64,000 nucleotides of DNA from Hyaloperonospora brassicae (Eukaryota; Oomycota; Peronosporomycetes; Peronosporales; Peronosporaceae): the NCBI GenBank assembly GCA_947650285.1, contig CANTFL010001353.1:62001-126000 (forward strand). The letters are read 5' to 3'. Below the pieces are notes generated by a model. It had not been told where the DNA came from, did not search any database, and worked only from the letters and a program-made list of their open reading frames with translations. The position numbers and the translations under genes were made by a program. This document shows, one piece after another, positions 26,844 to 64,000 of the stretch. The stretch's first letter is position 1. Each line of letters starts with the position of its first letter.

Positions 26844-26875
26844 GTTTTGTCTGGCAGTGCGCTTCGTGCGCACTA

Positions 26876-28528: not shown

Positions 28529-28537
28529 TATCGGCGA

Positions 28538-30739
28538 CTACATCAAGCTTTGCTTGATACCCTCAAAGGAACGCTGGCACTCAGCGTTCCATGACCACTT
28601 GACATTTTTCTTGGGCAAGCAAGAAAGATGAACAGTCATCTCGGCGTAGTTGCACGAGTACTTGTGCAAGTACGCCGCTAGGCCAAGGAACTTCCTTCGT
28701 CCCTTGACATCGACTGGCACTGGCCAGTCGGTGATCTCCTTGATCTTTTCGGGATCAGGGCGTACGCCGTGCATACCCACGATGTATCCAAGAAGTGGTA
28801 TTTCGCTAGCCGCGAATATACACTTCTCGAGGTTGGCGTACAACTTATGCTTGCGCATAAGTTGAAGAACCTGACGAACGTGAGTTCTGTGAACTTCAAC
28901 GTCCGGCTTTCCGTTAGTATCCCGGCTATGGACGAACACATCGTCGAAGTAACTCGGTGCGAAGTCACGCACCGGTCTCAACAGATTTGTTACACATCTG
29001 TTGAATGTTGCAGGGGCATTGCTCAGCCCCTGTGGCACCACTAGCCACTCCCACAGCATCCCGCTGGGGGTACTCACTGCCGTGAACGGGACGTCCTGTT
29101 CATGCATCAGGATCTGATAGAATCCATCCATCAGATCCATGGACGAAAAGATGGTACTCTTTGACATACCATCTATGATTACGTCCTTCCTCGGTATCGG
29201 CGTCTGAGCCGGTACCGTTGCAGCATTCAACTTGTTGAATGGTTGCACTATCCGCCACCCTCCTGTGGCCTTTCGCACACAGAAGGTCGGAGAGCTGTGA
29301 GGGGATGTTGATTCCCTCACATGGCCCGCTGCTAAGCGATCGGCAAAGAACTTGTCGATCGCTATCACTTGTTCACGAGGCAGTGGCCACTGCTTCATGA
29401 CACAGTATTTCGAGCCCGGTTTGAGCTCGATCTCGTGTCGAGTGCCTTTGTCCTTAGGCAACTCGCAAGGTACGGATTCAGGGAATAGATCCTTGAATTC
29501 GACCAAATCCTTATGCAAAGGATTTGCCTGAAGTGACTCCCAGGATTGGGACGCGTATCGCTCAATCCGAGTCTTCTCATCGAGGACACTTTCGTCCATC
29601 GATGAGCTGCTAAGAACCCGTTCGTTCTCAGCAAATACTGTTGCCGACCGAATATCGGCCACATACTCATCCTCTGTGACGAGTATGCAGATCTGCGTGA
29701 CTTTGCCACTACGCAGATCACGCAAGAACCGTTTCGGTTCTAGCGTTGGCAACTGAGTTATCTCCGAAGTCAACTTCGGAGGCACAATCAGATCAAGCGT
29801 ATAAGCGCCTACGCTTGATCCGTCATTAACCAAGACGTTCAACGTCTCGGTTTCTTCCTGGGAACTTGCTTCCACAGGTTGCTGAGGGCCTAATCCCTCA
29901 GCAAGCGACTCTTGAGGAATTTCTTCCTCAAGTACGTGGGGACTTATTCCCTCGACGTCTTCCGACTGTGGCTGTGCAACCACAGTCAGGAACCGATCCT
30001 CTACGGTCGACTCTCCAGTCGACCTAGGATTTTCATGTTGCCCCTTGGGGGCAACAGACTTCTTTCTTCTAAGATGCTGCCCGCTAGGCATGCATCCATG
30101 TCCCGGTCCACTCGACTTATTCGAGTGGTGGACCTTCGGCGCAGCCTGTACTTCTGTACAGCCGCCGGGAGCTTGCTCCACAGTGTAGTGATCAACTACA
30201 CTGTGATCTTGTGCAGTCGTGCTAACGACCGAACCGCAAGTGAGGCCATCGCACTCACTCGCAGAACACCCACACGCTTGTGGACTCTCCAAGATGTTCA
30301 TCAGATGGCCATCTGATGAACAAGTAGCAGGAATCTTCACGGATCGATGCTGCCAGCTCACCCTAGGCTCGTATTTTCTGAGCCAAGGTAATCCCAAGAT
30401 GACATCAAATTTGTCATCCAGGTCTAGTACGACGAAGTCATCATCGAATAATTCGCCCTCCAACGTGTAAGGGATTCCGACTACACGTTTCTCAACGGTT
30501 ATCGATGCGCCTGTTGCAAGGCGCACCGTCATCCTTGTGAGGGGAATGTCGCGCTCAACGAACTTGAGCCTACAACCCTCTAGTGACTGGCCACGAGCAA
30601 AGCTGTTTGACGCCCTACAGTCTACTAGGGCACGAAGCGACAAATCATTTGTCGCTTCCAACTTCAAGGTGATGAGCGAAACGTCATCACCAGGTGCAGA
30701 GACACACACTGATTGTGTATCTGTAGCAACTTTCGTCAA
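28538..30739 (-). CDS. Gypsy-2 protease-reverse transcriptase part of pol
   Basis: This 733-residue open stretch is in the -1 frame relative to gag. The frame is open back to the slippery heptamer at 30805-30811, so a separate start codon is unnecessary. The first codon given here is TTG and is not a real start. The retropepsin-type protease has DCRAS where Gypsy-1 has DCGAS, so the catalytic-loop Gly is replaced by Arg. A hydrophobic-Gly turn (FDVILGLPWL) follows. RT has SSMDLMDGFYQI, the [12 protein letters not shown] block and the catalytic YFDD box (near 28945), then the RT connection (FLGLAAYLHKY). The frame ends at TAG 28538-28540, which cuts off RNase H and integrase unless read through. 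Confidence 0.9.
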   Translation of the reverse strand: MTKVATDTQSVCVSAPGDDVSLITLKLEATNDLSLRALVDCRASNSFARGQSLEGCRLKFVERDIPLTRMTVRLATGASITVEKRVVGIPYTLEGELFDDDFVVLDLDDKFDVILGLPWLRKYEPRVSWQHRSVKIPATCSSDGHLMNILESPQACGCSASECDGLTCGSVVSTTAQDHSVVDHYTVEQAPGGCTEVQAAPKVHHSNKSSGPGHGCMPSGQHLRRKKSVAPKGQHENPRSTGESTVEDRFLTVVAQPQSEDVEGISPHVLEEEIPQESLAEGLGPQQPVEASSQEETETLNVLVNDGSSVGAYTLDLIVPPKLTSEITQLPTLEPKRFLRDLRSGKVTQICILVTEDEYVADIRSATVFAENERVLSSSSMDESVLDEKTRIERYASQSWESLQANPLHKDLVEFKDLFPESVPCELPKDKGTRHEIELKPGSKYCVMKQWPLPREQVIAIDKFFADRLAAGHVRESTSPHSSPTFCVRKATGGWRIVQPFNKLNAATVPAQTPIPRKDVIIDGMSKSTIFSSMDLMDGFYQILMHEQDVPFTAVSTPSGMLWEWLVVPQGLSNAPATFNRCVTNLLRPVRDFAPSYFDDVFVHSRDTNGKPDVEVHRTHVRQVLQLMRKHKLYANLEKCIFAASEIPLLGYIVGMHGVRPDPEKIKEITDWPVPVDVKGRRKFLGLAAYLHKYSCNYAEMTVHLSCLPKKNVKWSWNAECQRSFEGIKQSLM

Positions 30740-30789
30740 GAGATTTGCAAATTCTCTTGAGGTTGCTGGATCAGTAGGGCACTCCGCCC

Positions 30790-31944
30790 CTACTGACCCC
30801 GACCATTTTTTGATGGTCCGTCTCGATGTTGCGGCTTCGCAACAGCGCTGGACCCACGCCCATTGCCCTTTCTGGCGAATGGACGTCCATTTCGCTCAGT
30901 ACTGTTTGGTACTGGGCGTGGAGCACTACACTCGTATGCGTAGTGCCCTAACTTCTGACAGCGATTGTACCTCTGCAATCGATTGCTGTTTGAAGAGCGA
31001 GGTCTCTCGCTCTCAACATAGCAGAGGTCCATTGGTTCTGGACCTCCGATCTCTTGTCGTCTCGGTGGACGGTAAGAGTTTGAGCTAGCATGAGCCTGTC
31101 TCATGTTAAAGTCTTCCTGTTCCGCGGCTGATATCGCTTCTTCAAGCGTATTCAGTTCAAGGCGGAACAGATGGCTCCTGACGGGTCCTTCCGCGAGCCC
31201 TTGCATGAATACCGTAATCAACGTGTGTTCATGAACTGGGTTGGCAGTTATACTACTCGCTAGGAGTCGTATATCTTGTGCGTAAGCGTGCACATCACGC
31301 TTACCCTGCTTGAGTTTCAGGAGCTCAGAACGAGCCCTGAACTCAGCTCTTGGCGGCTCAAACGTTTGTCTGAGCCGGGACTTGAAGTCATCTAGCGACC
31401 TAGACACATTTGTTTCGCTACTCTCGAGCCCCAGGGACCAAGTTTTGGCACGCCCTGCCAAGTGGGTCTGAGCAAATGTGAGTTTCATTTGCTCATCTTC
31501 GACGCGACGAGCCCTAAAGGCTCTGTCGAGTTCGACAAACCATAGTAACAGGGAGTCCTCCGGGACTCCACTGTATTTGGAGATATCAACCTTCATGACC
31601 TCGGGACGACGTGCATGTGCCGTCCCGCCCACAGCAGCATGGAATTTCTGCTGTCTCAACAGCTCTGTCTGTTGAGCACCGAGTTCTCTCAACTGCTCGG
31701 CCTGTTGAGAGCCTTGCTGGTGAAGCAAGGCTACTTTCTCCCTTTCGGCGACAAGTTCATTTTGGATGAACTTGGCGATAGCGGCATGTTGTTGGTCTCT
31801 GTCTAGAGACTCCAACATGGCGCTAATGGCGAACTCGCCTACGGTAGAACTCATTCGTTCTACCGCACCCCATTCGATGTCACTCAAATGGGTATACCCT
31901 TCACGCGTGGCGTGAAAGGTCTCTTCTTCATCCAACATGTTCAT
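30790..31944 (-). CDS. Gypsy-2 gag
   Basis: The 384-residue gag is intact from ATG to TAG. It has an N-terminal helical segment with coiled-coil character (LLHQQGSQQAEQLRELGAQQ, about 85-110). The capsid-type retrotransposon gag domain follows (about 130-280, including LLWFVELDRAF and FMQGLAEGPVRSHLF). The C-terminal zinc knuckle is altered: it reads YNRCQKLGHYAYEC where Gypsy-1 has CNRC, so the first metal ligand is lost. The start lies in an 11-bp-arm hairpin. The gag-pol junction carries a -1 frameshift heptamer. Gag would form the particle that packages the element RNA. Confidence 0.93.
   Translation of the reverse strand: MNMLDEEETFHATREGYTHLSDIEWGAVERMSSTVGEFAISAMLESLDRDQQHAAIAKFIQNELVAEREKVALLHQQGSQQAEQLRELGAQQTELLRQQKFHAAVGGTAHARRPEVMKVDISKYSGVPEDSLLLWFVELDRAFRARRVEDEQMKLTFAQTHLAGRAKTWSLGLESSETNVSRSLDDFKSRLRQTFEPPRAEFRARSELLKLKQGKRDVHAYAQDIRLLASSITANPVHEHTLITVFMQGLAEGPVRSHLFRLELNTLEEAISAAEQEDFNMRQAHASSNSYRPPRRQEIGGPEPMDLCYVESERPRSSNSNRLQRYNRCQKLGHYAYECSAPRPVPNSTERNGRPFARKGNGRGSSAVAKPQHRDGPSKNGRGQ
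30805..30811 (-). promoter_or_regulatory. -1 ribosomal frameshift heptamer A AAA AAT (Gypsy-2)
   Basis: In the gag frame the codons are TCA AAA AAT, giving the canonical X XXY YYZ site, 15 bases before the gag TAG. Slipping back one base enters a frame that is open without interruption into the protease. The same site is kept in Gypsy-1. Confidence 0.8.
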
Positions 31945-31988
31945 GTTGGATGTTGTGGTCCTTGGAAGTACTACAAAGTGCTACCAGG

Positions 31989-32380
31989 TGTAACGGGGGA
32001 CACCCTTGCGTGAACTTAACGCAAGGGTATCGGTGCCCCGACAGACGTACACAAGGCAAGCGAGGAAGCGTAGGATAAGGAGAAAGTTTAACTGTTATAT
32101 TAATATAACTAAGTCTTTTTGCTACTGTCTCTCTGTTTAACCTGACTTAATTATGTTAATCTAACTGAGTGTATGGTGACGTCTCGCCACCACTCATTGC
32201 GTGCGTCTTACGGCGATTGGTGGGTTGATATCATCAAGATATCAACCGATGAACAGACTCTTTGGTCGACCCTTCAATATCACCGCTTCGGTGATATTGT
32301 TCAAAGAATATTCAACTTCATATTCTTTATTGTCACTTTCCTTAAAGTGACACTTCCATGTAACGGGCTGCCCCGTTACA
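31989..32380 (-). repeat. 5' LTR of Gypsy-2
   Basis: 392 bp, the partner of 24398-24789. Transcription of gag-pol would start inside it on the minus strand. TGGTAGCAC follows after two bases. Confidence 0.95.
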
Positions 32381-34558
32381 CCACCCGATACTTTACATCA
32401 GAGCAGCTCGTCAAACCAGTTCGACAGTGACTGAGCATGAACTGTTGCGGAAGCATAAGAAACTGGTGAACGCGACGTATGGCTACAGACCCAACTCCGA
32501 AAAACCTGCGCCGCTACTGTATAAATTGGTGACAGATCCGCAGAACGTGTGTGCCAGTAGGCAAGAGCTTGTTGCGAGATGACCCGGCAAGAAGATCAGT
32601 CAGCAGTCGTATACATGGTCGTGTAACATGTACATATTTGCGTACAGAAGATCGCATTGGTGCTCTTGGACGACAAGCGAGTGCGTGACGCCCCCAACGT
32701 TTGATCCCGTATATTCGGCTCATGGCAGCGCCCATGGGGCAAGCCACATAAGCCACATCATCAGCAGACCAATATACGGTCTCATCTGGATATCGGGTGG
32801 CAACATCAGCGTGCGTTTCGTCAAACGTTTGTAATGTAGAGCGTGATAACGCTTCATCAGCAAGTGCTACCTCGAGCATTGCAATGCAGACGGCATGTGG
32901 TGCCAGTGATACTGCTGATCCACCGCGCTTTCGAGTTCAAAGCCGAGAATGGGAGTAGTCGTCATGAATCAGCACCACATTATCTATGTTCCAGGTGCTT
33001 GGGATCCCAGTGCGCACGTAATGGACGAGGTGATCTGCGCAAAGAGTGAATCGTCGATTCTTTGTGTGGAACTCAATCATGATAAGTCTTCGAGTCGCTG
33101 GGGCGTACTTACAACGAATGAACAGTATGGGGCTGCTAACAAGAATGCTGTTGACGAAGCGACATTGGGCTATCGTAGATAAACGAAACAGTTTCGCCCA
33201 GGCTGCAGGAATGGACATATGCAGCAATCGGAGTTCGACTCTACCGGCGAACGGGAGAAGCCGCTACATGGCCGTATCAACTGGAAGTATAGCACATATT
33301 TCACGCTACCTATAAGGACTGTTATTGGTCACGTACTTGCCACATCTCTTCGGAGCGTTGTACTGTAATTTGAAAAGCTGAGTTTATCAACAAAGTACGT
33401 TCGCTTCCAACGTACTTCTGCGTGTAACATCCGCATCGTAGCTGACTCAGCTCAGCAAATGTGACCCACCAGTCGAATGCGACAACGAGTGTCGCAACGA
33501 AGCGGATATAACTGATACTGCAACTCCCCGAACACGCTCCTTCTCGATCCCTATAGTACGCGGTAAAAAGCTTGCACTCTGCATATCTGTGCGACCGCTA
33601 CACTTGGCGTCAAAAGAGGGTCAGGTCGGCATCGTAGCGACAGAGATTCCCTGGCGTAGTTATAATTACCAACAGTTTCCGGCAACTGCACCCGCGCACT
33701 AGGCGTCCGTATGGAGACGTGGTCGTCACTTCTGTAATGATGCAAGTCACGTATTACAAATAAGTGACCCACTGCATGCCCTTGTTGTCTGGTGTAAAAG
33801 CATGTGCTCCATAACGCTAGACGCAGAAAGTCGACCACGACTACGTCATCTTTCTTTGCCTATCAGTCGCATTGCAACATGCTGTAAAAAGATCGAAACC
33901 TGATTGTCGTTCAAGCCGCGACGATGTTTGTGACAAATGACAAGTTTAATGTATTAGTTCACGACCGAAGGATTAGAGCGTGGTCTTTCGTGGAGTTAAG
34001 TGCCGCAGGGCAACCGTGCTACGAGATCGATGCCTGCAAACGTCTCGCACCACGGCTACTCAGTGGCTACGAACTGATCAATGCTCAGGGCAACGCTGGA
34101 TCGCTACGCATGCTGCACGAATATGACCTGGCGTCTGATACCACGCGCAAAATCGTACATCCACGCAGCTGCGAACGGCAACTTAGTTTCTTGTATCATG
34201 TCGTTTGGACAGGCTTCTTCATTTAGCCCGCAAACGGTTGCGTTTTTCCGGTAAAGTGTTCGATTCTGTTCATGTGCACTTGGTATCTTTAATGGTCTTT
34301 GAATACACTACCCGTCGCCACGAGAATGTACCACTTTACTAATCGCATCAGATAGCTTCACTCTACGATTGGGATTGAAATATCTCGGCGTCGAGCCATT
34401 GCCTACCTGTACACAATCGTAGCCAAACTCATAGGCTACATGAACACGACAAAACGCTCTCAGTTGCAACGTCGCGAGTCGTACGAAGCTATCTATCTCT
34501 CACTAGGCTACGGTGCTTGTCGTCCCTTGACTCCTGACGGTAGGCCACTGCCTACCCC
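32381..34558. other. Intergenic region with only weak frames
   Basis: Begins with the right CCACC target copy of Gypsy-2. The longest frames with ATG starts are about 75-100 codons (for example 33924-34226 +, unrecognised). No domain, transposon terminus or RNA gene was identified. Confidence 0.4.
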
Positions 34559-42597: not shown

Positions 42598-43632
42598 ATG
42601 GAGCAATCCACACCCCTCTCTGAGGCTCAAAAGGTCGCGCTTGATAAGCTGACCGCGGCCGTAGGCCTAGAGTATGTGGAGTTTCTAGCTGCACAGGGTC
42701 CCGATGTGCTCAATGCACGAGTCGAGGCCTTTATGCAGTATGAAACGGCCCTGTTGGGCCAGGTTCAAAACCAAGTAGCCTCGGCTATGCCGACACGCTA
42801 CGTGGCTATGCCACCAGAAGAGGCTAAGCCTCGTCCCCTTCGGGTGGACGTTAAATGTTACTCCGGGAAGGAGGGGGAAAACATTACCCTCTGGATCCGT
42901 GAGATTGAGATGGCCATGGACTCTGGTCTCATCTCACTAGAGAACCAACGGGTCTCTTTGGCTATCTCTAAGCTCGATGGTAGAGCTAGAGAGTGGGCTT
43001 TGACGTGTGGCACGTCGGTCAATTTGGCATTTCCCACGTGGGAATCGCTCAAGTTAGACCTCATGCGAGTTTTCTCGCCGCCTAACCAGGCATATCGCGT
43101 GCGATCACGCTTCTTATCAACCCGTCAGGGTAAGAGCGAGTTAACGGACTATGTCCAAGAGTTGAGAACTCTAATGGCTGCTATGCAGTCTGACCCTCTC
43201 CCTGAGACTGTCTACGTGACAGTCTTCATGTAAGGTCTCCGCACTGGCGTGGCCAGAACCGAGGTTTTTCGGGTTCATCCCTCTACTTTTGAGGAAGCTG
43301 TGAGCGTCGCTCAAAATGCTGAGCACAACTTCAAGTCGGCCAGACTTGGTTGGAATGGGTACAACCCAAGCTTTGCGAGGGCGGCCTCTGCGAGGACTTC
43401 GGTTTACTGTAAGCCAGAACCGATGGATCTCAGCCATGCTGAAGATGAAGGCGAAGCGGAGCTTCATGTTGCGGAGCAACGACAGGATGTGAGACGCTGT
43501 TACCTGTGCGGAAGCACTAAACACTTGCGTCCCACTTGTCCTTTGCGTAAGCAACAACCGACTCCTATGAGTCGAAACCCCAGCCTCAACCAGAAACCTG
43601 GTATGGCACGGGGAAACGTCGAAACCCAGTAG
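42598..43632 (+). pseudogene. Gypsy-3 gag with one nonsense codon
   Basis: The frame is open from ATG 42598 to TAG 43630-43632 except for TAA at 43231-43233, which replaces the conserved Gln of the FMQGL motif seen in Gypsy-2 gag. The capsid-type domain (about 80-270) contains LWIREIEMAMDSG and the VRSRFLSTRQGKSELTDYVQELR region. A complete zinc knuckle (CYLCGSTKHLRPTC) is at about 43500-43541. Apart from the one stop it would be a 344-residue Gag. Confidence 0.92.
43611..43617 (+). promoter_or_regulatory. -1 ribosomal frameshift heptamer G GGA AAC (Gypsy-3)
   Basis: The gag-frame codons CGG GGA AAC form a canonical X XXY YYZ site 12 bases before the gag TAG. The -1 frame is open from here straight into pol. 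The motif differs in sequence from the A AAA AAT site of Gypsy-1/2 but has the same place and role. Confidence 0.8.
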
Positions 43633-46600
43633 GCGCGGGGAGCCCTACTGGGGTAGAACTAAGTTCTGTCACATCTCTACGAGATAAAGTGAAACAGGGC
43701 TTAGCCCCACTTAGCGCTGTGCCAGCCATCACAGAGCGTGGATACAAGCCTGGCTTGTTAGTCGCCGAGGCGACAGTAAAATGCTTTGAGAAGCCGTGGT
43801 CGATTTTAATCGATTTAGGAGCATCATGTAACTATGCTCGACGTCGTTCCCTTGAGGGAAGTCAGCGATACGCTGAAGCGCTCAAAGCGCACGAAGGTGA
43901 TTCGATCACCGTTCGTTTAGCGACTGGTAGTCGCGTCACGGTGCCTAAAGTTCCGTTGAACTTAGGTGTGAAGTTTTTGGACTTTGACAGCATTGAACGT
44001 TGTCTCGTCCTCGATTTGGATTCGAGATATGATCTCATCCTGGGTATGGCTTGGCTTGAACGCCATGAGCCATGGATTGATTGGAGGACTAAGACCTTAG
44101 GCGCCACGCGCAATGTTCCTAGCGAAGCTTTGGAGAGTCATGAACCCACCTTTGCTAGGCAACAAAAGCGCTATTGGCGCGAGCCATTGACGGAAGATGT
44201 CAATGTGCTGGACATTGGTATGTCAGAGTTATTTAACTCGAATGTCGATGACATAAATATTGAGCGGAGCTCTTCTAACGCGTTTGGAGAGAGTTATACT
44301 CCGTTGAGTGATACTCGTTGTGATACTGAGTCACTGCATGCGTCAAGCATGGTTGGCCTAGGGCCGAATCATCAAGAATGTAATTCCTCTGATGTAAGTG
44401 CGGCGGCACGTGAAAATACACAGAGTGAGGACGGCCGAGGTGGCACCTCACTGAATGTCGGTAATGACATTGATGGCGAGAAGCCAGAGTGTTCAGGGCT
44501 AGGCCCTAATGCTATAAGTGCGGTGGCACGTGAAATTACACAGAGTGAGGGCGGCCGAGGTGGCACCTCACTGAATTTCGGTAATGACATTGTTGGCGAG
44601 AAGCCAGAGTGTTTAGGGCTAGGCCCGAATAATGTACGTGAAGTGGTACGTGTAAATCCACTGGGTGAAGTGTTCGAGTTACGTAACACTTCACCAGATG
44701 TCGCTCAAGACATGAGCTCTCGTATAGAGCGTGCTAAGATGAATAGCAACCACGGGGACTTTGCTGTCCCGGCCTCTAAGAGGCATAAGGTTTCTTTGAG
44801 GAAACAATCGAAGCGTAGGGTGGTGACTGTTAAGCGCCCAACGTTTAAGAATTCACGAAGTGATAATAGTAATAATACACTGTATACACTTGTCAATGGA
44901 TTGACTGGCCAAATCGATGGCAATATTAGTCTTGAGGCTCTTCCATCCGTGGATAAAATCTTTGAGTTAGACGAGATGTCTGACGGCGAATTTAGCCAAG
45001 CCTTGCAGGCAGGAGAATTCTCCGAGTTAGTGGTCATTCGGCCTGATATTGAGTTGAACTCATCCTCGTTATTGGACGAGTCTGTCCTTGAGGACACAAA
45101 GGCGGCATTGGATGCCCGTAGTGGATCCTCGATCCTTAAGGATCCCCTTGATCCGTTTTATCCTTTGGTAAAGGAATTTCAAGACGTGGTGTGTCACGAC
45201 CCACCGTCTGTATTACCTCCTGATAGAGGTGTGCGTCATGAAATTGACTTGGTTCCTGGAACTAAATACTGCGTAACACGGCAGTGGCCTTTGCCCAAGG
45301 AACAGTGTGACGTCATAGACGACTTCTTTCGTGCAAAGCACGCGGCGGGGATGGTTCGTGAGAGCAAATCTCCCCATTCCACACCGACCTTCTGTGTCAA
45401 AAAGCCCAACGGGAAGTGGCGCATTGTTCATGCTTACAATAAGCTTAATGTGGCCACCGTCCCGGCTCAGACACCAATTCCGAGGAAGGATGTTCTTCAG
45501 AACAATATGGTGGGATGTACAATGTACAGTGCGCTCGACTTAGTCGATGGTTATTACCAGCTTCTCATGCGAGAAAGCGATATTCCGCTGACAGCGGTCA
45601 GCACTCCAAGCGGTATGCTCTGGGAGTGGCTCGTTATGCCGCAAGGGCTATCAAATGCCCCGGCTACATTCAACCGTCTTGTGACACAATTGTTTAGACC
45701 TCACAGAGGTTATGCACAGACGTACTTTGATGACATCTTTGTCCATAGTCGTGCTATGAACGGTCGGTCAGATGTGGATAATCACATTGACCATTTACGA
45801 GCGGTGCTCGAGTGCATGCGCACGAATAAGTTGTACGCCAACGCGTCTAAGTGCATTTTTGGTGCAGAAGAGATTCCCTTTTTAGGGTGCTTTATTGGAA
45901 AGCAAGGCCTTAGAGCGGATCCCGCCAAGGTAAAAGCCATAGTTGATTGGCCGGTTCCAAAGAACCAAAAGGACTTACGTAAGTGGCTTGGCCTCGCCAA
46001 TTACTTACACAAGTACAGTGCGAATTACGCAGACATGGCTCGGCCATTAACCAATCTCCTTAAAAAGGATGTAGAATGGTGCTGGACAAGCACTGAGCAT
46101 GATGCTTTTCAAGCAGTCAAGGAGAGTCTCCTACATGCGCCCATATTGGCTTTGCCTGATCCTGAGCGATCTTTCAGTGTCGTCTGTGACGCATCTGACT
46201 TTGCCATAGGCAGCGCTCTGTTACAAACAGATGATGATGGGCGGGAACGCGTTATTGCGTTTGAGTCCCGACAGCTAAAAGCTGCGGAGAAGAACTACCC
46301 TGTTCATGACAAAGAGCTACTTGCAATGAAGTATGCTCTCGTCAAATTCAGAGTTCATCTTCTTGGCTCTAAGCCGTTTGTGATCTATACAGATCATGCG
46401 TCACTATGCACTGCGACTCATTCGCCTCACCTCTCTCAGAGAATGGCTCGTTGGCTTTCCTTCTTTGCCGAGTAAAACTTCGAGGTGAAGTATAAGCCGG
46501 GCAAGCAAAATGCTTTGGCGGATGCGTTGTCACGCAGGCCTGACTATGAGCTTGCTCATGTTACGACTCTGTCGTCACCGGTCACTGACCTAATCCGCAC

Positions 46601-48371
46601 GGCATATGTCAAGGATGAACATTGTGTAGCCCTGCTACGTGCTCTAGGGAGCGAGGAGTTTATAGACTCGGACATAAAATTGTCGGCACGGTTACGTGCG
46701 AGGTTACATCGATATTCCATCGATCAAGGCCTGTTGTGCTATAGCACGGATGTGGAGGATACCCCTCGCATCGTTGTCCCTCATGATGAGGAGTTAAAGT
46801 ATCGGATCCTCTATGAGGCACATGATACTGCGTTGAGTGGTCATCTCGGTCGTGAAAAGACCTACGGCTCTGTGAGCCAATTCTATTGGTGGCCCAAACT
46901 ATACAAATGGGTGAGCACCTATGTACGTACGTATGAAACGTGCCAACGGGTGAAACCCTCACCACATGCGGCAGCGCCGCTGGCTAGTTTGCCTATACCC
47001 AAAGGGTGTTGGGAGTCCATCAGTATGGACTTCCTGTTCGGTTTACCGACGGATTCGTATGGAAATACGGGTATTGTGGTCTTTGTTGACCGTTTGAGCA
47101 AGATGGCTCATTTAGCGGCGGTGCCAGACACCATTGATGGTGAAGGTACAGCGACGCTGTTTATCGATCGCGTGTTTCGACAACACGGTCTGCCGTTGGC
47201 AATTGTCTCTGATAGAGATCCTCGCTTCACTGGGAAGTTTTGGAATTCCATCTTCAAGGTGCTCGGCACACGTTTGGACATGTCCACAGCGGATCATCCG
47301 CAGACCGATGGTCAAACGGAGCGCGTTAATCGTGTCATTGGTGACATCTTGCGCAGTGTTTGCGCTGAAACACCTAAGCGTTGGAGCTCGATGCTCCCTG
47401 TCGTTGAGTTTACGTTGAATAACGCTGTGCATGCCTCCACCGGCTTTACCCCGTTCTACGTGAACGGTCTCACACACCCTCGCGTTCCATTAACGCTACC
47501 ACTACGTGGTTCAAGGCTTGGTGGGGGAGGAGTTGCCGATCGGCTTGCTGATATCAGCCCTGCTACTGTTCAAAAAAAGGTAAGCGAGTTTCTCGCAACG
47601 CGATTGAATGTCTTACGACATGGGCGTGACGCACTGGCTGATAGCCAAGAAAAGCAGAAGGAACAAGCAGATGCCAAAGGCAGAGGTTGTATTGAACGTT
47701 ATAAGGTCGGAGGCCAAGTTCTACACAATGCTAAAAACCTACCTACAAATGTAGTATCCGCCGTCTTCAAGACGAAGTTGCGCCCGCGCTTCATTGGACC
47801 CTTTACGGTCGTCGCCAAGAAGGGACTTGCGTATACGATCAACCTTCCGCGCAAACTGCGCACACACCCCGTGTTCTACGTTGGCATGCTTAAGCCGTAT
47901 CGGGATCCGTCCCACGTGAACTTGGAGGCGCTTGCGCCGGGTAGGTTGGCTTTGCCATCGGTTGCTGAATCCGTATCAGGAGGTCAAGCTGAGCCTCCAT
48001 CCGGGCTTGGCCCAACTCCAACGCCCGAACACGGGCTCGCATTGCGTCGAACGCACTCTGGGTCTGACCCAACGTCTCACGGAGACCACTCAGCTCGAGA
48101 AGCACCTTCTCGTGCTCCTACTTCGGTATACCGGCCACCTCCGACGCTGCTCGATGAGCAAGGGAACCGCCAGTTCCATGTGGAACGACTCCTGAAACGA
48201 CGTCGTCGTCAGGGTCAATACCAGTATCTGGTAAAGTGGCGAGGGTACCCGGAGTCAGAGAACTCGTGGGAATTTGAGGTACCCCTTCGGCAGGATTGCC
48301 CGTACGCCGTTGATGTTTTTGAACATCGTGGCAGGGATCATCCTTCGACCGATATCGCTTCCCACCAATAG
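43618..48371 (+). pseudogene. Gypsy-3 pol (PR-RT-RH-IN-chromo) with one nonsense codon
   Basis: The frame has a single interruption, TAA at 46473-46475, where Gypsy-2 has Tyr in FFAEYNF. The protease has IDLGAS (near 43812). A variable region with two repeats ([21 protein letters not shown] units, about 44340-44640) follows. RT has [24 protein letters not shown] and YFDD (near 45727). RNase H has [16 protein letters not shown] and YTDHAS. The integrase HHCC ends CQRVK. The core has SMDFLFG, SDRDPRF and DGQTERVN. GPY-type RFIGPFTVVAKKG and THPVFYVGMLKPY, and a chromodomain (YLVKWRGYPESENSWE, near 48220-48270), complete it. There is no own ATG; expression by frameshift from gag is expected. Confidence 0.93.
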
Positions 48372-49191
48372 TGGTGGAAGCAGGTGGGTCGTTTGGTTCC
48401 GCTTGACCAACTCCCACTTCCATCGTCACAGCCGGAGCATAGCGGGTGCGAAATCGCAATTGGCCTCTAGCCTTAAGCTTGGCATAGTCATACCGAAGCT
48501 TTCGTTCGAGACGAACATCTGCCACATTGGCACTTGCTCTGAGAGCTAGCATGCTGCTGAGGTGACGTTTCCGGTGCACCCAGCGCACAAAAGTGTTGTC
48601 CTCCTCCTCCGTAGATTCGCCTGCGAATAAGAAGATGGGTATACCCCTCATCGGTGGCACCGGTGCACCCCGTGCTTGCGTGTCAAGTCGCAACTTGTAT
48701 TGACTTAGAGTCGTCAAGTGGGGTTGCAGGTACCTCTCACGAAGTGCCTGTCGGCTCGCCACTTCATCAGAAGATGTAGGCTCAGCGCCAATGGCCCACG
48801 TTGCCAGGGAACGACCTGTCGTTTGGCGTATACGCTCTTCCACATTGAGTGGCGTGAACTGATAGCCACGACGACCCTCAAGGTCTGCAGCAAGCTGCAT
48901 ACGGCGCTGCGCGCTCTCCTCTTGTTGGATTACCAACTCTTGTTGCTCATCGAGCGGGTTGGTGATGATGTGTTCACCTGCATCTGTTGCATGATGCTGC
49001 GTTTCTAACGCGGTGGTCTCAGTACGCTCGGCAAAGGGGTTTGGTGCAGTATGAGGCGATGCCTCTTGCACTGGTGAGTTGGACATTGTCCGTTCTTCAC
49101 CACGGACATTGGTATCACTACCATAGTCCTCCTCCACATTAATGCCGAGGTAAGAAGAGAGAGTCGGGGACTCGTTAGGTGGCGATGCCAT
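47890..49191 (-). pseudogene. Antisense-encoded protein of Gypsy-3, one internal TAG
   Basis: From ATG 49189-49191 the frame runs 357 codons to TAG 48118-48120, then continues in the same frame for another 75 codons to 47890. The first part is acidic and polar, with a helical Gln/Glu-rich stretch (EQQELVIQQEESAQRRMQLAADLEG, about 95-120). A globular-looking middle follows (PVPPMRGIPIFLFAG, then NTFVRWVHRKRHLSSMLALRAS and ERKLRYDYAKLKARG). After the TAG the sequence is a coiled coil (LLELSGLRETLGQTQ, then RVRALELGQARMEAQLDLLIRI). It overlaps the sense linker and chromodomain by 482 bp. The sequence is unlike Gypsy-2's antisense protein, but position, strand, length and coiled-coil ending are the same. 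Function unknown. Confidence 0.7.
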
Positions 49192-49298
49192 GGTGTTTCG
49201 TGCTTTGCAAACCGTGAGGTTAGAGCGCACACACACCGTCCTCTTCGAGGAGAAGTTCGATTGACGTTTTGTGGTAACGTCAGTCTGGTGGGGGAGGG

Positions 49299-52601: not shown

Positions 52602-54117
52602 TGGATCCAGGTCCCCAAATCGACAGCACTGCCACTGCGGTGCCCATGCGGCGCCCATGCGGCGCCCGTGCGTGCGTGACGAAGCACAGGAAGCACAGTC
52701 AGGGGCTGCTCAAACCCAGACACAGTAGCTGTTTCCACCGACGTCGGTCTCGCTCGACCCTTCCGTTGCTGTGCCTGCGAGTCCAGCGGCGACGCTCTGC
52801 TGCCCACCGTCGCAGCCTCTAATGACCGAACACCATATCGTACCTTGAGCTCCTCCCCCTCCTCCTCCTCCTCCGACATACCCATCTGCCTACCTATCTA
52901 CCCATCTACCGGCCCACGGCCGCCCACCAATTGCTGCAGCAAAAGCAGAAACTGCTCTGATGCTGCGGACAACCGACGGACCCGTCACGTCGAGACCCGC
53001 ACCACAATGGAACGCACGACACGCACGACACGCACGAAGAGGTTTATATACTTTACACGTCTTCTTACACGGAGCGACTTAGTTAGTTCGTGAATTCGGT
53101 CGTGACGGGCGGAGCCGCAGTCCCAGTGGCAGCGCCACTCCCGTGCACCTGCACCTGCGCTGGTCTTTGCCATTGCAATTGCGGCTGCGGCTGTGTCCGG
53201 TGCTGCGTGCAGTGCTCGGCGCACAAGTTCCCGTTGCGCTCGTACGCAGGTTTCTGGCACGTCTCGACGAGACAGCGCTTGCCGCCGCCGTGCGCCCAGC
53301 AGAGGCCGTGCGAGACGGCGATCTTGGCGCACCCGCCGTGTTTGCAGCGCGTGCCGCCGCCGTGCGACCAGCAGATGCCGCGCGACTTGGCGCGTTTCGT
53401 GCAGCCGTCGACCGTGCAGCGCGTGTAGCCGCCGTGTTTCCAGCACAGCCCGCGGTTCTGCGCGCGGCAGTTGCAGTCGTCCACCGAGCAGCGCTTGCCG
53501 CCGCCGTGGCGGATGCACAGCCCGCGGTCGACGACGTACTTTTCGCAGCCGTCGGACTTGCAAATGCGCGTCTTGCGCTTCTTCTTGAGCTGCGTCTTGA
53601 CGTCGCGGGGGCGGTAGCCGTCGGTCGGTGCGCCAGCGCAGGACGCGGCCCTTAGGGCGTACGGATGGTACAGTGCGGTCGGCGGACCGACAGTCGATGC
53701 AGGTGGAGCGTACGGCGACTGCTGTTGTGGTTGTTGTTGCAGTTGTTGTGGCTGTTGTGGTTGTTGCAGGGGGTAGTGGGCAGTGGCCACGAGGTGCGTC
53801 GGCGGGTTTAGCAGGTACGAGATGGACGACGACGTGTGGACCGGTGAAGACGAGGCCGGCGACGTGTAGCCGCTTTGGGCTGCGAGTGTGCTCACGAGAC
53901 TCGGCAGCACTGGGAAGCGCGGCGTGAGGGACGGCAGCCGGATGCTGCGAAAGGAGTGGGGGGCCGCGTACGGGTCCGACGACAGCAGCGCTGCGTGCAC
54001 GAGCGGGGCGAGGCGCGACGAGGGCATGGGACAAGCTTGCATGGTGGCAATTGAATGGACGGAGCGTGCGCAGCGGGTGGCGGTTCAACAAGTGAGTATG
54101 CTCTGAAGCGACGTGAG
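52602..54117 (-). repeat. Left arm of the large inverted duplication
   Basis: 1516 bp, the reverse complement of 58632-60137 with very few differences: one roughly 10-bp duplicated GGCGCCCATGC unit near 52645-52660, single-base changes, and one amino-acid change in the gene. Identity ends sharply at 54117 and 52602. Confidence 0.95.
53083..54042 (-). CDS. WRKY19-like zinc-finger protein, copy A
   Basis: The 319-residue protein has an N-terminal part with FRSIRLPSLTPRFPVLPSLV (31-50). A Gln-rich stretch (92-108) and a basic patch KKKRKTR (153-159), a likely nuclear signal, follow. Five tandem fingers of pattern C-x4-C-x9-C-x2-H then occupy about 161-278, first ligands C161, C166, C176, H179. 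Each contains RGLCxxHGG. This finger is found in plant WRKY19-type proteins and is widespread in oomycetes, where the proteins are called WRKY19-like although no WRKYGQK domain is present. A nuclear DNA- or protein-binding regulatory role is inferred. Copy B differs at one residue (281: His here, Arg in B). Confidence 0.9.
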   Translation of the reverse strand: MQACPMPSSRLAPLVHAALLSSDPYAAPHSFRSIRLPSLTPRFPVLPSLVSTLAAQSGYTSPASSSPVHTSSSISYLLNPPTHLVATAHYPLQQPQQPQQLQQQPQQQSPYAPPASTVGPPTALYHPYALRAASCAGAPTDGYRPRDVKTQLKKKRKTRICKSDGCEKYVVDRGLCIRHGGGKRCSVDDCNCRAQNRGLCWKHGGYTRCTVDGCTKRAKSRGICWSHGGGTRCKHGGCAKIAVSHGLCWAHGGGKRCLVETCQKPAYERNGNLCAEHCTQHRTQPQPQLQWQRPAQVQVHGSGAATGTAAPPVTTEFTN

Positions 54118-58631: not shown

Positions 58632-60137
58632 CTCACGTCGTTTCAGAGCATACTCACTTGTTGAACCGCCACCCGCTGCGCACGCTCCGTCCATTCAATT
58701 GCCACCATGCAAGCTTGTCCCATGCCCTCGTCGCGCCTCGCCCCGCTCGTGCACGCAGCGCTGCTGTCGTCGGACCCGTACGCGGCCCCCCACTCCTTTC
58801 GCAGCATCCGGCTGCCGTCCCTCACGCCGCGCTTCCCAGTGCTGCCGAGTCTCGTGAGCACACTCGCAGCCCAAAGCGGCTACACGTCGCCGGCCTCGTC
58901 TTCACCGGTCCACACGTCGTCGTCCATCTCGTACCTGCTAAACCCGCCGACGCACCTCGTGGCCACTGCCCACTACCCCCTGCAACAACCACAACAGCCA
59001 CAACAACTGCAACAACAACCACAACAGCAGTCGCCGTACGCTCCACCTGCATCGACTGTCGGTCCGCCGACCGCACTGTACCATCCGTACGCCCTAAGGG
59101 CCGCGTCCTGCGCTGGCGCACCGACCGACGGCTACCGCCCCCGCGACGTCAAGACGCAGCTCAAGAAGAAGCGCAAGACGCGCATTTGCAAGTCCGACGG
59201 CTGCGAAAAGTACGTCGTCGACCGCGGGCTGTGCATCCGCCACGGCGGCGGCAAGCGCTGCTCGGTGGACGACTGCAACTGCCGCGCGCAGAACCGCGGG
59301 CTGTGCTGGAAACACGGCGGCTACACGCGCTGCACGGTCGACGGCTGCACGAAACGCGCCAAGTCGCGCGGCATCTGCTGGTCGCACGGCGGCGGCACGC
59401 GCTGCAAACACGGCGGGTGCGCCAAGATCGCCGTCTCGCACGGCCTCTGCTGGGCGCACGGCGGCGGCAAGCGCTGTCTCGTCGAGACGTGCCAGAAACC
59501 TGCGTACGAGCGCAACGGGAACTTGTGCGCCGAGCACTGCACGCAGCGCCGGACACAGCCGCAGCCGCAATTGCAATGGCAAAGACCAGCGCAGGTGCAG
59601 GTGCACGGGAGTGGCGCTGCCACTGGGACTGCGGCTCCGCCCGTCACGACCGAATTCACGAACTAACTAAGTCGCTCCGTGTAAGAAGACGTGTAAAGTA
59701 TATAAACCTCTTCGTGCGTGTCGTGCGTGTCGTGCGTTCCATTGTGGTGCGGGTCTCGACGTGACGGGTCCGTCGGTTGTCCGCAGCATCAGAGCAGTTT
59801 CTGCTTTTGCTGCAGCAATTGGTGGGCGGCCGTGGGCCGGTAGATGGGTAGATAGGTAGGCAGATGGGTATGTCGGAGGAGGAGGAGGAGGGGGAGGAGC
59901 TCAAGGTACGATATGGTGTTCGGTCATTAGAGGCTGCGACGGTGGGCAGCAGAGCGTCGCCGCTGGACTCGCAGGCACAGCAACGGAAGGGTCGAGCGAG
60001 ACCGACGTCGGTGGAAACAGCTACTGTGTCTGGGTTTGAGCAGCCCCTGACTGTGCTTCCTGTGCTTCGTCACGCACGCACGGGCGCCGCATGGGCACCG
60101 CAGTGGCAGTGCTTTCGATTTTGGGGACCTGGATCCA
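58632..60137 (+). repeat. Right arm of the large inverted duplication
   Basis: 1506 bp, inverted partner of 52602-54117. It includes 75 bp upstream of the zinc-finger ATG, the whole coding region and about 470 bp downstream. Confidence 0.95.
58707..59666 (+). CDS. WRKY19-like zinc-finger protein, copy B
   Basis: The protein has 319 residues and is the same as copy A except residue 281 (Arg instead of His, CAC to CGC). The five C-x4-C-x9-C-x2-H fingers, the Gln-rich region and the basic patch are all kept. Only about 75 bp upstream is shared with copy A, including a CCATTCAATTGCC element that loosely resembles the oomycete initiator. The two copies may therefore share a minimal promoter but differ in distal control. 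Copies A and B point towards each other's upstream side, that is, they are divergently transcribed from the spacer. Confidence 0.9.
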   Translation: MQACPMPSSRLAPLVHAALLSSDPYAAPHSFRSIRLPSLTPRFPVLPSLVSTLAAQSGYTSPASSSPVHTSSSISYLLNPPTHLVATAHYPLQQPQQPQQLQQQPQQQSPYAPPASTVGPPTALYHPYALRAASCAGAPTDGYRPRDVKTQLKKKRKTRICKSDGCEKYVVDRGLCIRHGGGKRCSVDDCNCRAQNRGLCWKHGGYTRCTVDGCTKRAKSRGICWSHGGGTRCKHGGCAKIAVSHGLCWAHGGGKRCLVETCQKPAYERNGNLCAEHCTQRRTQPQPQLQWQRPAQVQVHGSGAATGTAAPPVTTEFTN

Positions 60138-62971
60138 GACCGGTCGACGCGACGAGCAGCGCGCGACCTATGGCGCCGAAGGGATCCGTATTTGTTGCGC
60201 GTTTGCAGACGGGCTGTTGCTCCGTGCGCGGACGGATGGGCTCAAGTAGTGAACGTGCTGCTGGTTGGCGACTGTGAAACGCTTTGGTGGCAGCTGCGAG
60301 TGGAAGCGACCAGCATCAAGAAGACGGAGGAGAAAGCGCGCTGACCACGCGTTGAGATTTGTCTCAGAGCTGGTGTTCCGATGTCTACGCCAGCGATTTC
60401 AGCGCTTACTGCTATCACTGTAGAGCTCACGTCGATGTCGACAGCAGTGACTCGGGAGCTCAGATGCGTTGCGGCGACTCCCTTAGCCAACGAACCTCTT
60501 GACAGAGCCGGACACGACCGGTGCGACTCATGGGCTGTGCATGTGACTCGGGCGGGTCGCTGCTCTATTGTAGCGATTCAGTGCGAGTCGCTGCATGCAG
60601 CTGCTAGCGCTGTACTGTCCGTCACCCGCAGCTTAACGAGCTGTGCGGAAGCGTGGCGCGTCCACGTCTGTGTATAGTTAGCATGGCGAGGCCTTGGGAC
60701 CCGTCCGATAGCTCATCGTCTCGTTTTTTGTTCGTTTTGTGCAAGCGGTTCCACCGCCTGTAAGGCGAAAGGTTGTGCCACGCGGGCCAAGTCACATGGA
60801 CAGCCGCTGATCAGGCGGTGGTGACACACTCTGCCAAACGGACGAGTAGCAGGAGATTGCGCTTCGCTGGGCCGACGCTGGGCATATAGCGGCGATGCGT
60901 TTTTGTCGGCGGTCTGAGTTGATGTGTCGATGATGACCGTACTTTGACTGCTCGTCACTGCTCGAAACAGGGTAACGTGCTATTGGATCGAGATGTGTCC
61001 GATGCGAGCGTCTGGGCGGACATCTCACTTGTGCACGGATCGCTACAACGCGTAGCATGATCAGCAGAGAGTGTATGGTCGTCGTCTCTTTTGGGATGCA
61101 GCGCAAGGCTCAGTTACCATCATAGACCCAATCGAGGCACCGACAGCAGAAAGAGATGCAATTTGTTCCGTGTCCAAGATGCAGCAGACAATGATGTGCG
61201 TCCACAGCGTCTACAGTCGTTCGAAAGCCGTGACAATTAGTTTGAGGGAAAACTCAGCAGTCGACACCCAGTCGCAGGGCACGCGTGTGTATCCGATGGA
61301 TGTCCACGATGCAAACCGTATCGGTGCTCAGCGTCATTATCATACAGCGCGCCGCCCACTGCTCAAAAACACGCAACGGACAGCAGCATCACTTGCGGAG
61401 CAATATGTCGATCGCGCCGATGAACGACAGCCTGACATCACCGAGCGTGCGTGACCTACATGACTACTTTCGCAAATCGTCGCTCGAAATTCGTTTTTGC
61501 GCTCAAATGGTCGATCGGTCATGAGCCTTAGCCCGAAAGGAACGACCGAGCTGCGTCTTCGAGACCGAGTCTGCGATCAGAGCTCTCGTGCCATCCAGCG
61601 ACAAGAGATGTAGAATCTTTGCGGCCGCAGGTACACTCTGCGTCTATTTCCGAAGCGGATATCGAGAAACGCACCAAATAATCACGCAAAGAAGCAAAAT
61701 GCATCACAAGGGAAGAAAACATGACATGGTGCAACTATTAGCTCAGTTTAAACATGTCAGCAACGACGCACACTATACGCACGAACACACATATATTTCT
61801 GACCACGCCAGACAAAAGCATTTGCGTCGTTGAAATGCAGACAAATGTTGTAGCGGTCTGAATGAGGTTGAGCATTCCCAGTGGCTTGGTCATGTCTGAT
61901 TGACTTTTGCACCCATTGATCGCTTAAAGCTCTGCATCATGCAAGTTGTTGACACGCAATTACCTTTGCCACGGCATACATCACCTCTGCGACGCGAGCT
62001 CCATCATCCTGTGTTTCCGCAAGTAGCTAAACTACGTCAAGGGCGTGGCAGAACGAAGTGTTAAGCGTATTGTGCGAAGGTTCGATGGGATGGAGCGGAT
62101 CGGGGCACTACGTTTGCGTGTAGTGTGTCCTCCACTGCAAGTTCTAATATTGCATCTAGCACCTAGACTACAGTGTCCACGTCAACAACAACATCACAAC
62201 CATCACGAATAGCGTCATTTGTGCCGAGTGTAACAACCCGTCAGCTTTGCGCGTTCTACCAGCGTAAGTCCCACTTTGCGCTTCTGCAAGCACCTGCATG
62301 ACCACATGTAATCCGCATAATGCAAGTCCCTGGTAGCTCTCCAGTATGGTTTCTGCACTTGCTACCTTTGTTTACTCGTCGTCTCATGCTGCCTTCAGTC
62401 GTTCCTTGATCGGCGCTTACGGCATACTAATGCGACAATCAGACTCTGCGCTGTGTCTTCCTACTTACACTTAACAGCACATCCATAGGCAAGAGCTACA
62501 TGTAGACACCATGTCAGACCAGCTTAAGCTAGACAAAGGAGATAGAAGCAACTCGGACCTCCAGAAGAACGTTACACGATACTGTCAGGATACGCCCGAC
62601 GCATCCACGCGCCTTTTCGTCTCGCAGGAAAGTTGTCGACCGAAGAAGTCGCAAAGGTTTTTAATTCATCAACTAGGAGAAGAAACCCGAAAACGTACGT
62701 GGGTGGAGTCGAATGACCCCAGGCAGGCGTGTGTTCTCGTCCGTAGGTGGAGTTACGCTGCTAGTGCATGTTTTCATTTGTTTCTAGCGATTTAGTGCAC
62801 TATTGTTATCTTTCACATCTAGTAGCGCATTTATTTTGATTGTTTTGGTGTGTTTTGGTGTTTTTTCTCACGTTGTGGTCCATTGTTTTTCTCGTGATTA
62901 TTCGGTTGCATTTTATTTACTTTTATGCTCTGGAGATGGCACAAAAAATAGTATGTTTGCAAGATGGGTGA
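60138..62971. other. Intergenic region before Gypsy-5
   Basis: Frames of up to about 127 codons (61071-61454 +; 62511-62795 +) have no recognisable domains. A T-rich tract lies at about 62815-62930. No repeats shared with the rest of the window were noticed. Confidence 0.4.
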
Positions 62972-63359
62972 TGTAACGGGGCAGCCCGTTACATGATATT
63001 GTCACTTAAGGAAAGTGACAATAAAGAATATAAGATGGATATTCTTTAAACAATATCACCAAAGTGGTGATATTGAAGGGTCGACCAAAGGGTCTGTTCA
63101 TTGGTTGATATCGTGATGATATCAACCCACCAATCGCCGCAAGACGCGCGCAATGAGTGGTGACGAGACGTCACCATACATGCAGTTATATTAGTATAAT
63201 TGAATTAAGTCAAACGAAGAGACAGTAGTTTAAAGACTTAATTTATTAATATAACAGTTCTACTTTTACCCTACCTACGCTTCCTCGCTCGCCACGTGTA
63301 CGTCCGTCGGGGAACCCAAATCCCTTGCGTTAAGTTACGCAAGGGTGTGCCCCGTTACA
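62972..63359 (+). repeat. 5' LTR of Gypsy-5
   Basis: 388 bp. The first 22 bases fold on themselves (TGTAACGGG / CCCGTTACA). At least four 9-10 bp hairpins follow between 62998 and 63127, then one of 7 bp and one of 9 bp before the end. Confidence 0.94.
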
Positions 63360-63403
63360 CCTGGTAGCACTTTGTAGTCCTTCCAAGGACCACATCATCC
63401 AAC

Positions 63404-64000
63404 ATGAACATGTTGGATGAAGAAGACACCTTTCACGCCACGCGTGAAGGGTTTACCCATTTGAGTGACATCGAATGGGGTGCGGTAGAACGAATGAGTT
63501 CTACCGTAGGCGAACTCGTCGTCAGCACCATGTTGGAGTCTCTAGACAGAGACCAACAACATGCCGCTATCGCCAAGTTCATTCACAATGAACTTGCTCT
63601 CGAGAGGGAGAAAGTAGCCTTGCTTCACCAGCAAGGCTCTCAACAGGCCGAGCAGTTGATAGAACTCGGTGCTCAACAGACGGAGCTGTTATGACAGCAG
63701 CAATTCCATGCTGCTGTGGGCGGGACGGCGCATGCGCGTCGTCCCGAAGTGATGAAAGTCGACATCTCCAAGTACAGTGGAGTCCCGGAGGACTCCCTGT
63801 TACTATGGTTTGTCGAACTCGACAGAGCCCTAAGGGCTCGTCGCGTCGAAGATGAGCAAATGAAACTCACATTTGCTCAGACCCACTTGGCAGGGCGTGC
63901 CAAAACTTGGTCCCTGGGACTCGAGAGTAGCGACCCAAATGTGTTTAGGTCGCTAGATGACTTCAAGTCCCGGCTCAGACAAACGTTTGAGCCGCCACGT
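63404..64000 (+). pseudogene. Gypsy-5 gag, partial, one nonsense codon
   Basis: The frame starts with ATG 63404 and follows Gypsy-2 gag closely. TGA at 63692-63694 replaces an Arg codon in the LLRQQ motif, after which the same frame continues to the window edge. The N-terminal coiled-coil-like segment and the first part of the capsid-type domain are present. Confidence 0.9.

Follow-up and report, generated by a model that had tools for sequence, protein, structure and literature searches.

Ty3/Gypsy retrotransposons are flanked by long terminal repeats (LTRs) with TG...CA ends and by a 5-bp target repeat, and encode Gag, protease, reverse transcriptase (RT), RNase H and integrase in that order. 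Some RNA viruses have ordered RNA structure on the scale of the whole genome, with folding energy above that of shuffled sequences and constraint at synonymous sites. Here we describe copies of an 8-kb Ty3/Gypsy family packed with perfect hairpins in a 64,000-nucleotide window of the oomycete Hyaloperonospora brassicae (the whole stretch of DNA analysed, positions 62,001 to 126,000 of contig CANTFL010001353.1). The excess of stems over shuffled sequences spans the LTR, gag, RT and integrase, occurs in two related clades (Y, which includes this family, and X) and not in a third (W), and is smaller in diverged copies. Comparison of copies leads us to suggest, with a probability of roughly 0.4, that the stems persist because selection favours the self-folding of both strands in replication.

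In its LTR ends, target repeat and domain order the family is like other Ty3/Gypsy elements, from which it differs in that about one-fifth of the bases of element B, a full-length copy in the window, lie in perfect stems with arms of at least 8 bp; clade W, LINE-like elements and a Copia element of the same genome lack this feature. It resembles ordered viral RNA in its whole-length excess of folding energy over shuffles and its constrained synonymous sites, but consists of discrete perfect Watson–Crick hairpins with no overall tolerance of wobble pairs and with near strand symmetry, and is a retrotransposon. Template-switch mutations create and maintain RNA hairpins, according to one study (Monttinen and Loytynoja 2022, PMC8794818); perfect reverse-complement stems and compensated changes between distant relatives are common to both cases, whereas close copies here have few compensated pairs and no templated patches, and their stems are conserved and do not drift pairwise. 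Ty1 likewise has a structured retrotransposon RNA genome, and perfect-hairpin saturation goes unmentioned in the portions available of the paper that describes it (PMC9503155). We found no description of hairpin-saturated retrotransposons in the literature searched, most subscription journals being outside its reach.

Hairpin-packed Ty3/Gypsy copies in the window

The right edge of the window (62971-64000) holds an LTR and the first part of gag, with the following features.

62971-62994: hairpin, arm 10, loop 4
62972-63359, + strand: 5′ LTR, hairpin-packed, with TG...CA ends read from the sequence
62997-63023: hairpin, arm 11, loop 5
63051-63075: hairpin, arm 11, loop 3
63103-63127: hairpin, arm 10, loop 5
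63158-63176: hairpin, arm 8, loop 3
63322-63345: hairpin, arm 9, loop 6
63362-63376, + strand: likely primer-binding site (TGG...), placed by its position after the LTR end and free of hairpins with arms of at least 6
63377-63390: hairpin, arm 6, loop 2
63395-63420: hairpin, arm 12, loop 2
63404-63694, + strand: N-terminal open segment of gag, 96 amino acids (aa), stop-terminated in this copy, homologous to the open gag at 30790-31944
63432-63448: hairpin, arm 7, loop 3
63456-63479: hairpin, arm 6, loop 12
63483-63506: hairpin, arm 9, loop 6
63538-63553: hairpin, arm 6, loop 4
63574-63596: hairpin, arm 10, loop 3
63616-63638: hairpin, arm 9, loop 5
63694-63717: hairpin, arm 9, loop 6; the homologous place in clade X1 has a perfect hairpin of other sequence
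63716-64000, + strand: continuation of gag, Ty3 capsid-like, leaving the window (PF19259, E 1.3e-5; PF03732, E 1.5e-4; both under Pfam's gathering score)
63721-63746: hairpin, arm 7, loop 12
63779-63796: hairpin, arm 7, loop 4
63811-63824: hairpin, arm 6, loop 2
63825-63839: hairpin, arm 6, loop 3
63853-63879: hairpin, arm 10, loop 7
63887-63903: hairpin, arm 6, loop 5
63928-63955: hairpin, arm 8, loop 12
63971-63994: hairpin, arm 7, loop 10

An earlier note on 63377-64000 had described a gag coding sequence saturated with about a dozen perfect inverted repeats, six of them with arms of 8 bp or more where about 0.1 would be expected. All 12 consist of exact reverse-complement arms; five have longer arms than it gave (63395, 12 bp; 63574, 10; 63616, 9; 63779, 7; 63853, 10), and five further hairpins with arms of at least 6 bp (63377, 63432, 63456, 63538, 63694) were missing from its list. 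The excess itself is upheld: within these 624 bp there are 7 stems (arms of at least 8, loops of 2-12), where 300 first-order Markov sequences average 0.09 and never exceed 3, and 11 stems against 0.51 in the same sequences when arms of at least 7 and loops of up to 15 are counted. Two halves of the gag piece have 3 hairpins each, against 0.62 and 0.68 (maxima 3 and 2) in 60 codon shuffles per half with protein and dinucleotides preserved; shuffling works poorly on short pieces, and the gag piece alone accordingly lies barely outside its shuffles. Open reading frames (ORFs) outside the elements carry 0-1 hairpins in all three cases tested, and the condition that the note set for its own refutation, a hairpin density no higher than in codon shuffles or host genes, does not hold. 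Gag is thus dense in hairpins, but they are not confined to its codons, since the adjoining noncoding LTR is denser (6 hairpins with arms of at least 8 at 62971-63370, against 0.07 in dinucleotide shuffles). The suggestion that codons were chosen so that the sense strand folds back was accordingly too narrow, as noncoding LTR and both strands behave alike.

The gag frame of this copy is broken by a stop at 63692-63694. Its first ATG (63404) lies inside the 12-bp stem at 63395-63420, which would hinder initiation if the RNA folds in that way. The genome, 100.56 Mb in 898 contigs and the only one examined, has at least 40 copies of the 624-bp stretch, 40 of 40 scored copies being 99-100% identical (from 1730 candidates). 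Among the best 120 of 238 matches to gag, the named relatives are from Peronospora matthiolae, and the rest are mostly environmental contigs.

The window also contains a complete relative, element B, and two further elements.

24398-32380, − strand: element B, full-length Ty3/Gypsy relative, 7983 bp, with LTRs at 24398-24789 and 31989-32380
24791-24803, − strand: likely polypurine tract of element B, unpaired and flanked by two hairpins
26876-28528, − strand: RNase H and integrase segment of element B, from Pfam matches
28538-30739, − strand: protease and RT segment of element B (RVP_2, RVT_1)
30790-31944, − strand: gag of element B, open, 384 aa (PF03732, PF19259)
5848-13893, + strand: element D, older and more decayed, of the same clade as B, with 35 hairpins (arm at least 8) in 8046 bp
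42598-48371, + strand: element C, a related Gypsy element of clade W with a background level of hairpins (control)

Element B is flanked by the 5-bp target repeat CCACC (24393-24397 and 32381-32385); its LTRs are 7591-7592 bp apart. Pfam matches to RVP_2, RVT_1, RT_RNaseH, Integrase_H2C2, rve, Retrotrans_gag and Ty3_capsid lie in the Gypsy order, in pieces. The family belongs to Ty3/Gypsy by the order of RT, RNase H and integrase, the Ty3-type capsid, the LTR pair with its target-site repeat, and the TGG of the probable primer site after the LTR. Element B holds 89 hairpins with arms of at least 8, 121 with arms of at least 7 and 164 with arms of at least 6; every 500-bp bin has 2 to 9 of them, and 26% of its bases are in stems with arms of at least 7. 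Along the full length of the family there is one hairpin per ~60-90 bases. Shuffles of synonymous codons that preserve protein and dinucleotides give far fewer: gag has 8 hairpins against 0.63 (maximum 3), the protease and RT segment 25 against 0.98 (maximum 4), and the RNase H and integrase segment 17 against 0.38 (maximum 2). Chance and composition are rejected as explanations, because dinucleotide, Markov and codon shuffles all fall far below the observed stem counts.

We compared 40 RT-centred loci of ~2.5 kb each, taken from 150 RVT_1 places among the matches listed. Clade Y has 7.2-13.6 stems (arm at least 8) per kb at 18 loci, and clade X has 2.0-4.4 at 6 loci, rising to 5.4-8.4 in parts of its elements beyond RT; the other 16 loci (clade W, distant Gypsy and LINE-like) have 0-0.4. 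The tree, from which six rows named LINE-like for their RT match length were left out, makes Y, X and W sisters whose order is not settled (SH-aLRT 95, 100, 100). Element C, of clade W, shares 49-52% protein identity with Y in RT and integrase (the RT being from another W copy) and 28% in gag. A Copia element at 36.5-39.7 kb has hairpins at the background level, and window DNA outside three hairpin-dense islands has 0.50 per kb. With hairpins dense in Y and X and at background in W and Copia, the trait follows the lineage of elements (two related Gypsy clades among the loci examined) and not the host. A host-wide feature is likewise rejected by 12 random 1.5-kb stretches, ten of which hold 6 hairpins in 15 kb while the two dense ones are Y copies. 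A search of viral contigs returned 8 pattern matches and no relatives.

Conservation of stems among copies and clades

Among 20 Y copies, the more a copy has diverged from its closest counterpart, the lower its hairpin density (rho −0.85, p 2e-6). For X1 gag, stems per kb number 8.5-9.4 in four near-identical copies, 2.8-5.7 in three relatives with 89-92% nucleotide identity and 0-4.8 in five pieces that are more remote.

Variants were counted in an LTR-gag alignment, built from 12 of 40 fetched gag loci and three window copies (13 of 15 copies kept), and in an alignment of the RT region (17 of 20 kept); copies that were partial, misaligned or old were dropped (winA and winD from the first, L055, L070 and winD from the second). 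Variants present in at least three copies were called shared. With L034 as the reference, the LTR-gag region has shared variants at 5 of its 745 sites in stems, 11 of 245 in loops and 58 of 1378 elsewhere (p 6e-7); across seven references, stems are 3- to 6-fold poorer in shared variants than the remaining sites (p 4e-7 to 0.002). Private variants, by contrast, are equally frequent in and out of stems (0.055 and 0.052 per site). The depletion is found in the noncoding LTR and leader (2/142 in stems vs 36/286 outside) and at third positions of gag (0/117 vs 19/259); first and second positions (0/108 vs 4/275 and 0/111 vs 3/271) have too few variants to judge. When the stem map was shifted circularly, counts as low as the observed one or lower came up in 0 of 2370 cases for L034, 0 of 2370 for L032 and 11 of 2370 for L040. 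In the RT region, shared variants are 1.8- to 3.5-fold rarer in stems (Fisher p 0.0004-0.10, seven references), with shifts at or below the observed value in 161 of 2468 cases for L061, 0 of 2468 for L062 and 34 of 2468 for L063.

Shared variants are presumably those passed on by active elements. Read as transmitted variants, they indicate that stems, and not loops, are conserved in transmission and are left to decay afterwards. Production of the hairpins by host DNA replication after insertion was rejected, because diverged copies have fewer hairpins and private variants hit stems like any other site.

Despite differences at 30-45% of amino acids, X1 and X2 have 13 hairpin positions in common (5+3+5) where ~0.5 are expected. 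Among the 108 base pairs of these common hairpins, 90 are unchanged, 8 are double-changed and still paired, and 10 are broken; in X1 stems outside this set, 89/284 pairs are unchanged and 14 are double-changed. Y has four positions in common with X1 (1.4 expected) and four with X2 (0.7 expected). Most stems are clade-specific, so that hairpins turn over slowly. With respect to codon phase, third-to-third pairing is the rarest class (14/77 in Y), as expected if the protein limits the possible stems.

A neutral process could also relate the two arms of a stem: RT may fold the new strand back and copy one arm from the other, making and keeping stems by self-templated conversion. Watson–Crick arms without a G.T preference, near strand symmetry and confinement to two reverse-transcribing clades fit such a process, and so does one X1 gag stem that exceeds its counterparts in three older relatives by two pairs. 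The process is described for DNA replication (PMC8794818). However, conversion would turn about half of the arm mutations into compensated pairs and so predicts ~15 of them in the LTR-gag alignment (745 stem sites × the outside rate of 0.042 / 2). The two alignments together have one such pair with both types in at least three copies; three pairs have the minor type in two copies or more. Private compensated states number 4 for LTR-gag and 16 for RT, where many fall in misaligned rows. Fold-back patches, defined by at least three substitutions within 10 bases, were sought in 228 clusters from four alignments (147, 38, 35 and 8) with no real gain, the three nominal gains being losses in the reference copy. 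Neither arm appears as donor by codon likelihood (5′ minus 3′, −0.03±0.03, n=154), and conversion gives no account of the depletion of shared variants in stems. Derived amino acids number 13/63 in 5′ arms, 20/71 in 3′ arms and 79/410 outside stems, and third-position codon typicality is −0.041±0.015 in 5′ arms and −0.003±0.014 in 3′ arms; because these measures of copying direction disagree and the fuller likelihood test is null, no direction is claimed. The repeated template-switch conversion proposed in the earlier note is therefore a possible origin of stems but is not supported as the force that maintains them, and we consider the neutral account as a whole improbable. With few compensated pairs, no patches and no donor arm, purifying selection for pairing is left.

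Base pairing, strand symmetry and the probable targets of selection

Reverse transcription is the stage at which both strands are single, as RNA template and as minus-strand cDNA. The molecules under selection would then be the genomic RNA and the first-strand cDNA inside the particle, each hairpin being firm enough for the strand to stay self-folded, shielded and compact, and weak enough for RT to open. A change that gives G.U in the RNA gives A.C in the cDNA, and the reverse, so that neither kind of break would be favoured. The primer-binding site and the polypurine tract would lie between hairpins, as reverse transcription would require.

Broken pairs are in line with this expectation. Shared broken pairs are GT in 18 cases, AC in 20 and other in 19, giving no overall preference for G.T; over all stem cells the counts are GT 114 and AC 134 in the RT region (partly misaligned rows included) and GT 45 and AC 52 in LTR-gag. 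One-mismatch stems (4+1+4) in four sets, of which Y and Y2 come from different copies of a single family, number GT 9, AC 15 and other 15, and perfect stems of at least 9 bp in Y number 75 against 0.25 expected. The two strands also fold nearly alike, with local folding energies (sense/antisense) of −100.7/−98.4 for Y, −81.4/−82.9 for X1 and −70.1/−70.0 for X2. When random strings were hill-climbed on sense RNA energy, they reached a mean of −87.4, short of Y's −100.7, with a strand gap of 15 kcal/mol, G.U at 0.13 and merely 1.9 perfect stems per kb. Simulated one-mismatch stems were few (4+1+4: GT 0, AC 0, other 4; 4+1+3: GT 4, AC 0, other 8), so that the simulation is a better guide to the strand gap and the density of stems than to the GT/AC ratio. 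Sense RNA alone is a less likely target, given that G.T and A.C breaks are of about equal rarity and that the two strands fold nearly alike.

Stem GC differs among the families (0.53, neutral, in Y; 0.69, high, in X1; 0.61, high, in X2), and energies were therefore compared. Mean stem-loop energy is −12.9 kcal/mol in Y, −13.6 in X1 and −12.6 in X2, all computed with RNA parameters. Over 168 hairpins, longer arms are GC-poorer (rho −0.36), and the spread of stem energy (sd 2.52) is narrower than for redrawn arm letters (3.46±0.19, minimum 2.88 of 60); the arm cut-off of 8 partly sets the lower bound of stem energy but has no part in the upper one. Stem strength thus clusters near −13 kcal/mol in three families, by way of short GC-rich or longer AT-richer arms. 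From these sequence patterns we tentatively picture more than 100 conserved Watson–Crick hairpins of like strength, by which the RNA and the first DNA strand would each become a string of self-folded beads, a picture we hold slightly less firmly than selection on both strands as such.

Several observations weigh against selection on both strands, and some of them would suit ordinary selection on the structure of the sense RNA, a retrotransposon version of the genome-wide structure of RNA viruses. A looser count of one-mismatch stems in X1 gives GT 6 and AC 2; the sense fold of Y is slightly better (−2.3±1.2); loops are enriched in A on the sense strand (0.295 vs 0.235, X2 excepted); 4-base loops have a purine in third place in 35/48 cases on the sense strand and 21/48 on the antisense strand; and both compensated pairs common to at least two LTR-gag copies are LTR pairs, each next to a G.T intermediate that six copies carry. 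The conservation of stems at synonymous sites and a Y folding energy of 1.69 times that of shuffles (X1 1.26, X2 1.16) would also agree with a sense-RNA target, but hairpin-free W reaches 1.28 times, so that folding energy alone is not specific. The RNA-strand test of ordered viral structure, with sense bias and accepted G.U, failed apart from those two LTR pairs: GT does not exceed AC overall, strand bias is nil in X1 and X2 and weak in Y where the simulation gives −15, and tetraloops are GNRA in 6 sense and 4 antisense cases and never UNCG (of 48). A sense-RNA target is hence rather unlikely, and selection on RNA structure as the earlier note proposed it is borne out in that stems are depleted of shared and not of private variants, while the sense-RNA signature is unclear.

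Further points bear on the same reading. The short pol part of the gag alignment has no stem depletion (3/267 vs 7/534), the depletion in the RT region is weaker than in LTR-gag, the seven references of each alignment share data and are not independent, and all results rest on one genome. At 63362-63376 and 24791-24803, the likely primer site and polypurine tract are unpaired, which fits weakly, as such sites are few and this could be chance. Hairpin spacing is random in three of four tests, and regular spacing was rejected save for one X1 piece, which departs from randomness (CV 0.53 vs 0.79±0.14). Clade W is abundant (at least 150 gag matches, 150 of 150 scored), so that hairpins are not required for the success of an element. 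Clade W also has a sense bias in folding (−75.0 vs −70.8, shuffled −58.8) in spite of its lack of perfect hairpins.

Spacing and loops bear on whether Gag reads the hairpins as dispersed packaging signals. A Ty3-like gag is present, a zinc knuckle is matched in X1, and the hairpins span the whole RNA; however, spacing is mostly random, loops vary like unpaired sequence (11/245 vs 58/1378 sites), and no dominant loop motif was found among the 168 hairpins, which makes packaging signals a very improbable explanation.

The main rival to selection for self-folding in replication is a shield against host RNA silencing, in which hairpins would hide target sites on sense and antisense transcripts and slow the pairing of the transcripts. 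The about equal foldability of both strands and the conservation of stems but not loops would follow from it as well. Element B has, near its 3′ LTR, an antisense ORF of 430 aa without a Pfam match (24921-26213, + strand), with relatives in Hyaloperonospora brassicae (86% identity over 58%), Peronospora effusa (40% over 79%), H. arabidopsidis and environmental contigs; because this ORF has downy-mildew relatives, the antisense strand is probably transcribed near the 3′ end, as a shield would presuppose. On the other hand, clade W has a long antisense ORF (48118-49236) and is abundant while hairpin-free, and random spacing leaves gaps unclosed. We rate the silencing shield as unlikely, though ahead of the other alternatives.

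Neighbouring features and significance

Some further features concern the related elements. A counterpart of the antisense ORF of element B was seen by eye in element D (12468-12929), and the antisense ORF at the 3′ end of element C (48118-49236, − strand) has 372 aa and no Pfam match. An integrase chromodomain is present in element C, X1 and X2 (L082, L084); it is unmatched in the corresponding segment of element B (26079-26768), where the frame is broken. Two inverted, near-identical ORFs of 319 aa, encoding a Cys-rich repeat protein, lie ~5 kb apart (53083-54042, − strand; 58707-59666, + strand).

If selection for self-folding of both strands is the correct reading, purifying selection for pairing on the two strands would act on roughly one site in four of an 8-kb element, a constraint of unusual density for any genome. 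In the hairpin families, neither synonymous nor LTR sites would then be neutral, so that their divergence would be unfit as a clock unless stems are set apart. A genome of self-folded beads would add a new mode of genome organisation: the pairing rules of the double strand would be selected on single-stranded replication intermediates. With their hundreds of hairpins and a hairpin-free sister clade beside them, the related families, at least three in number, offer a natural experiment on retroelement folding.
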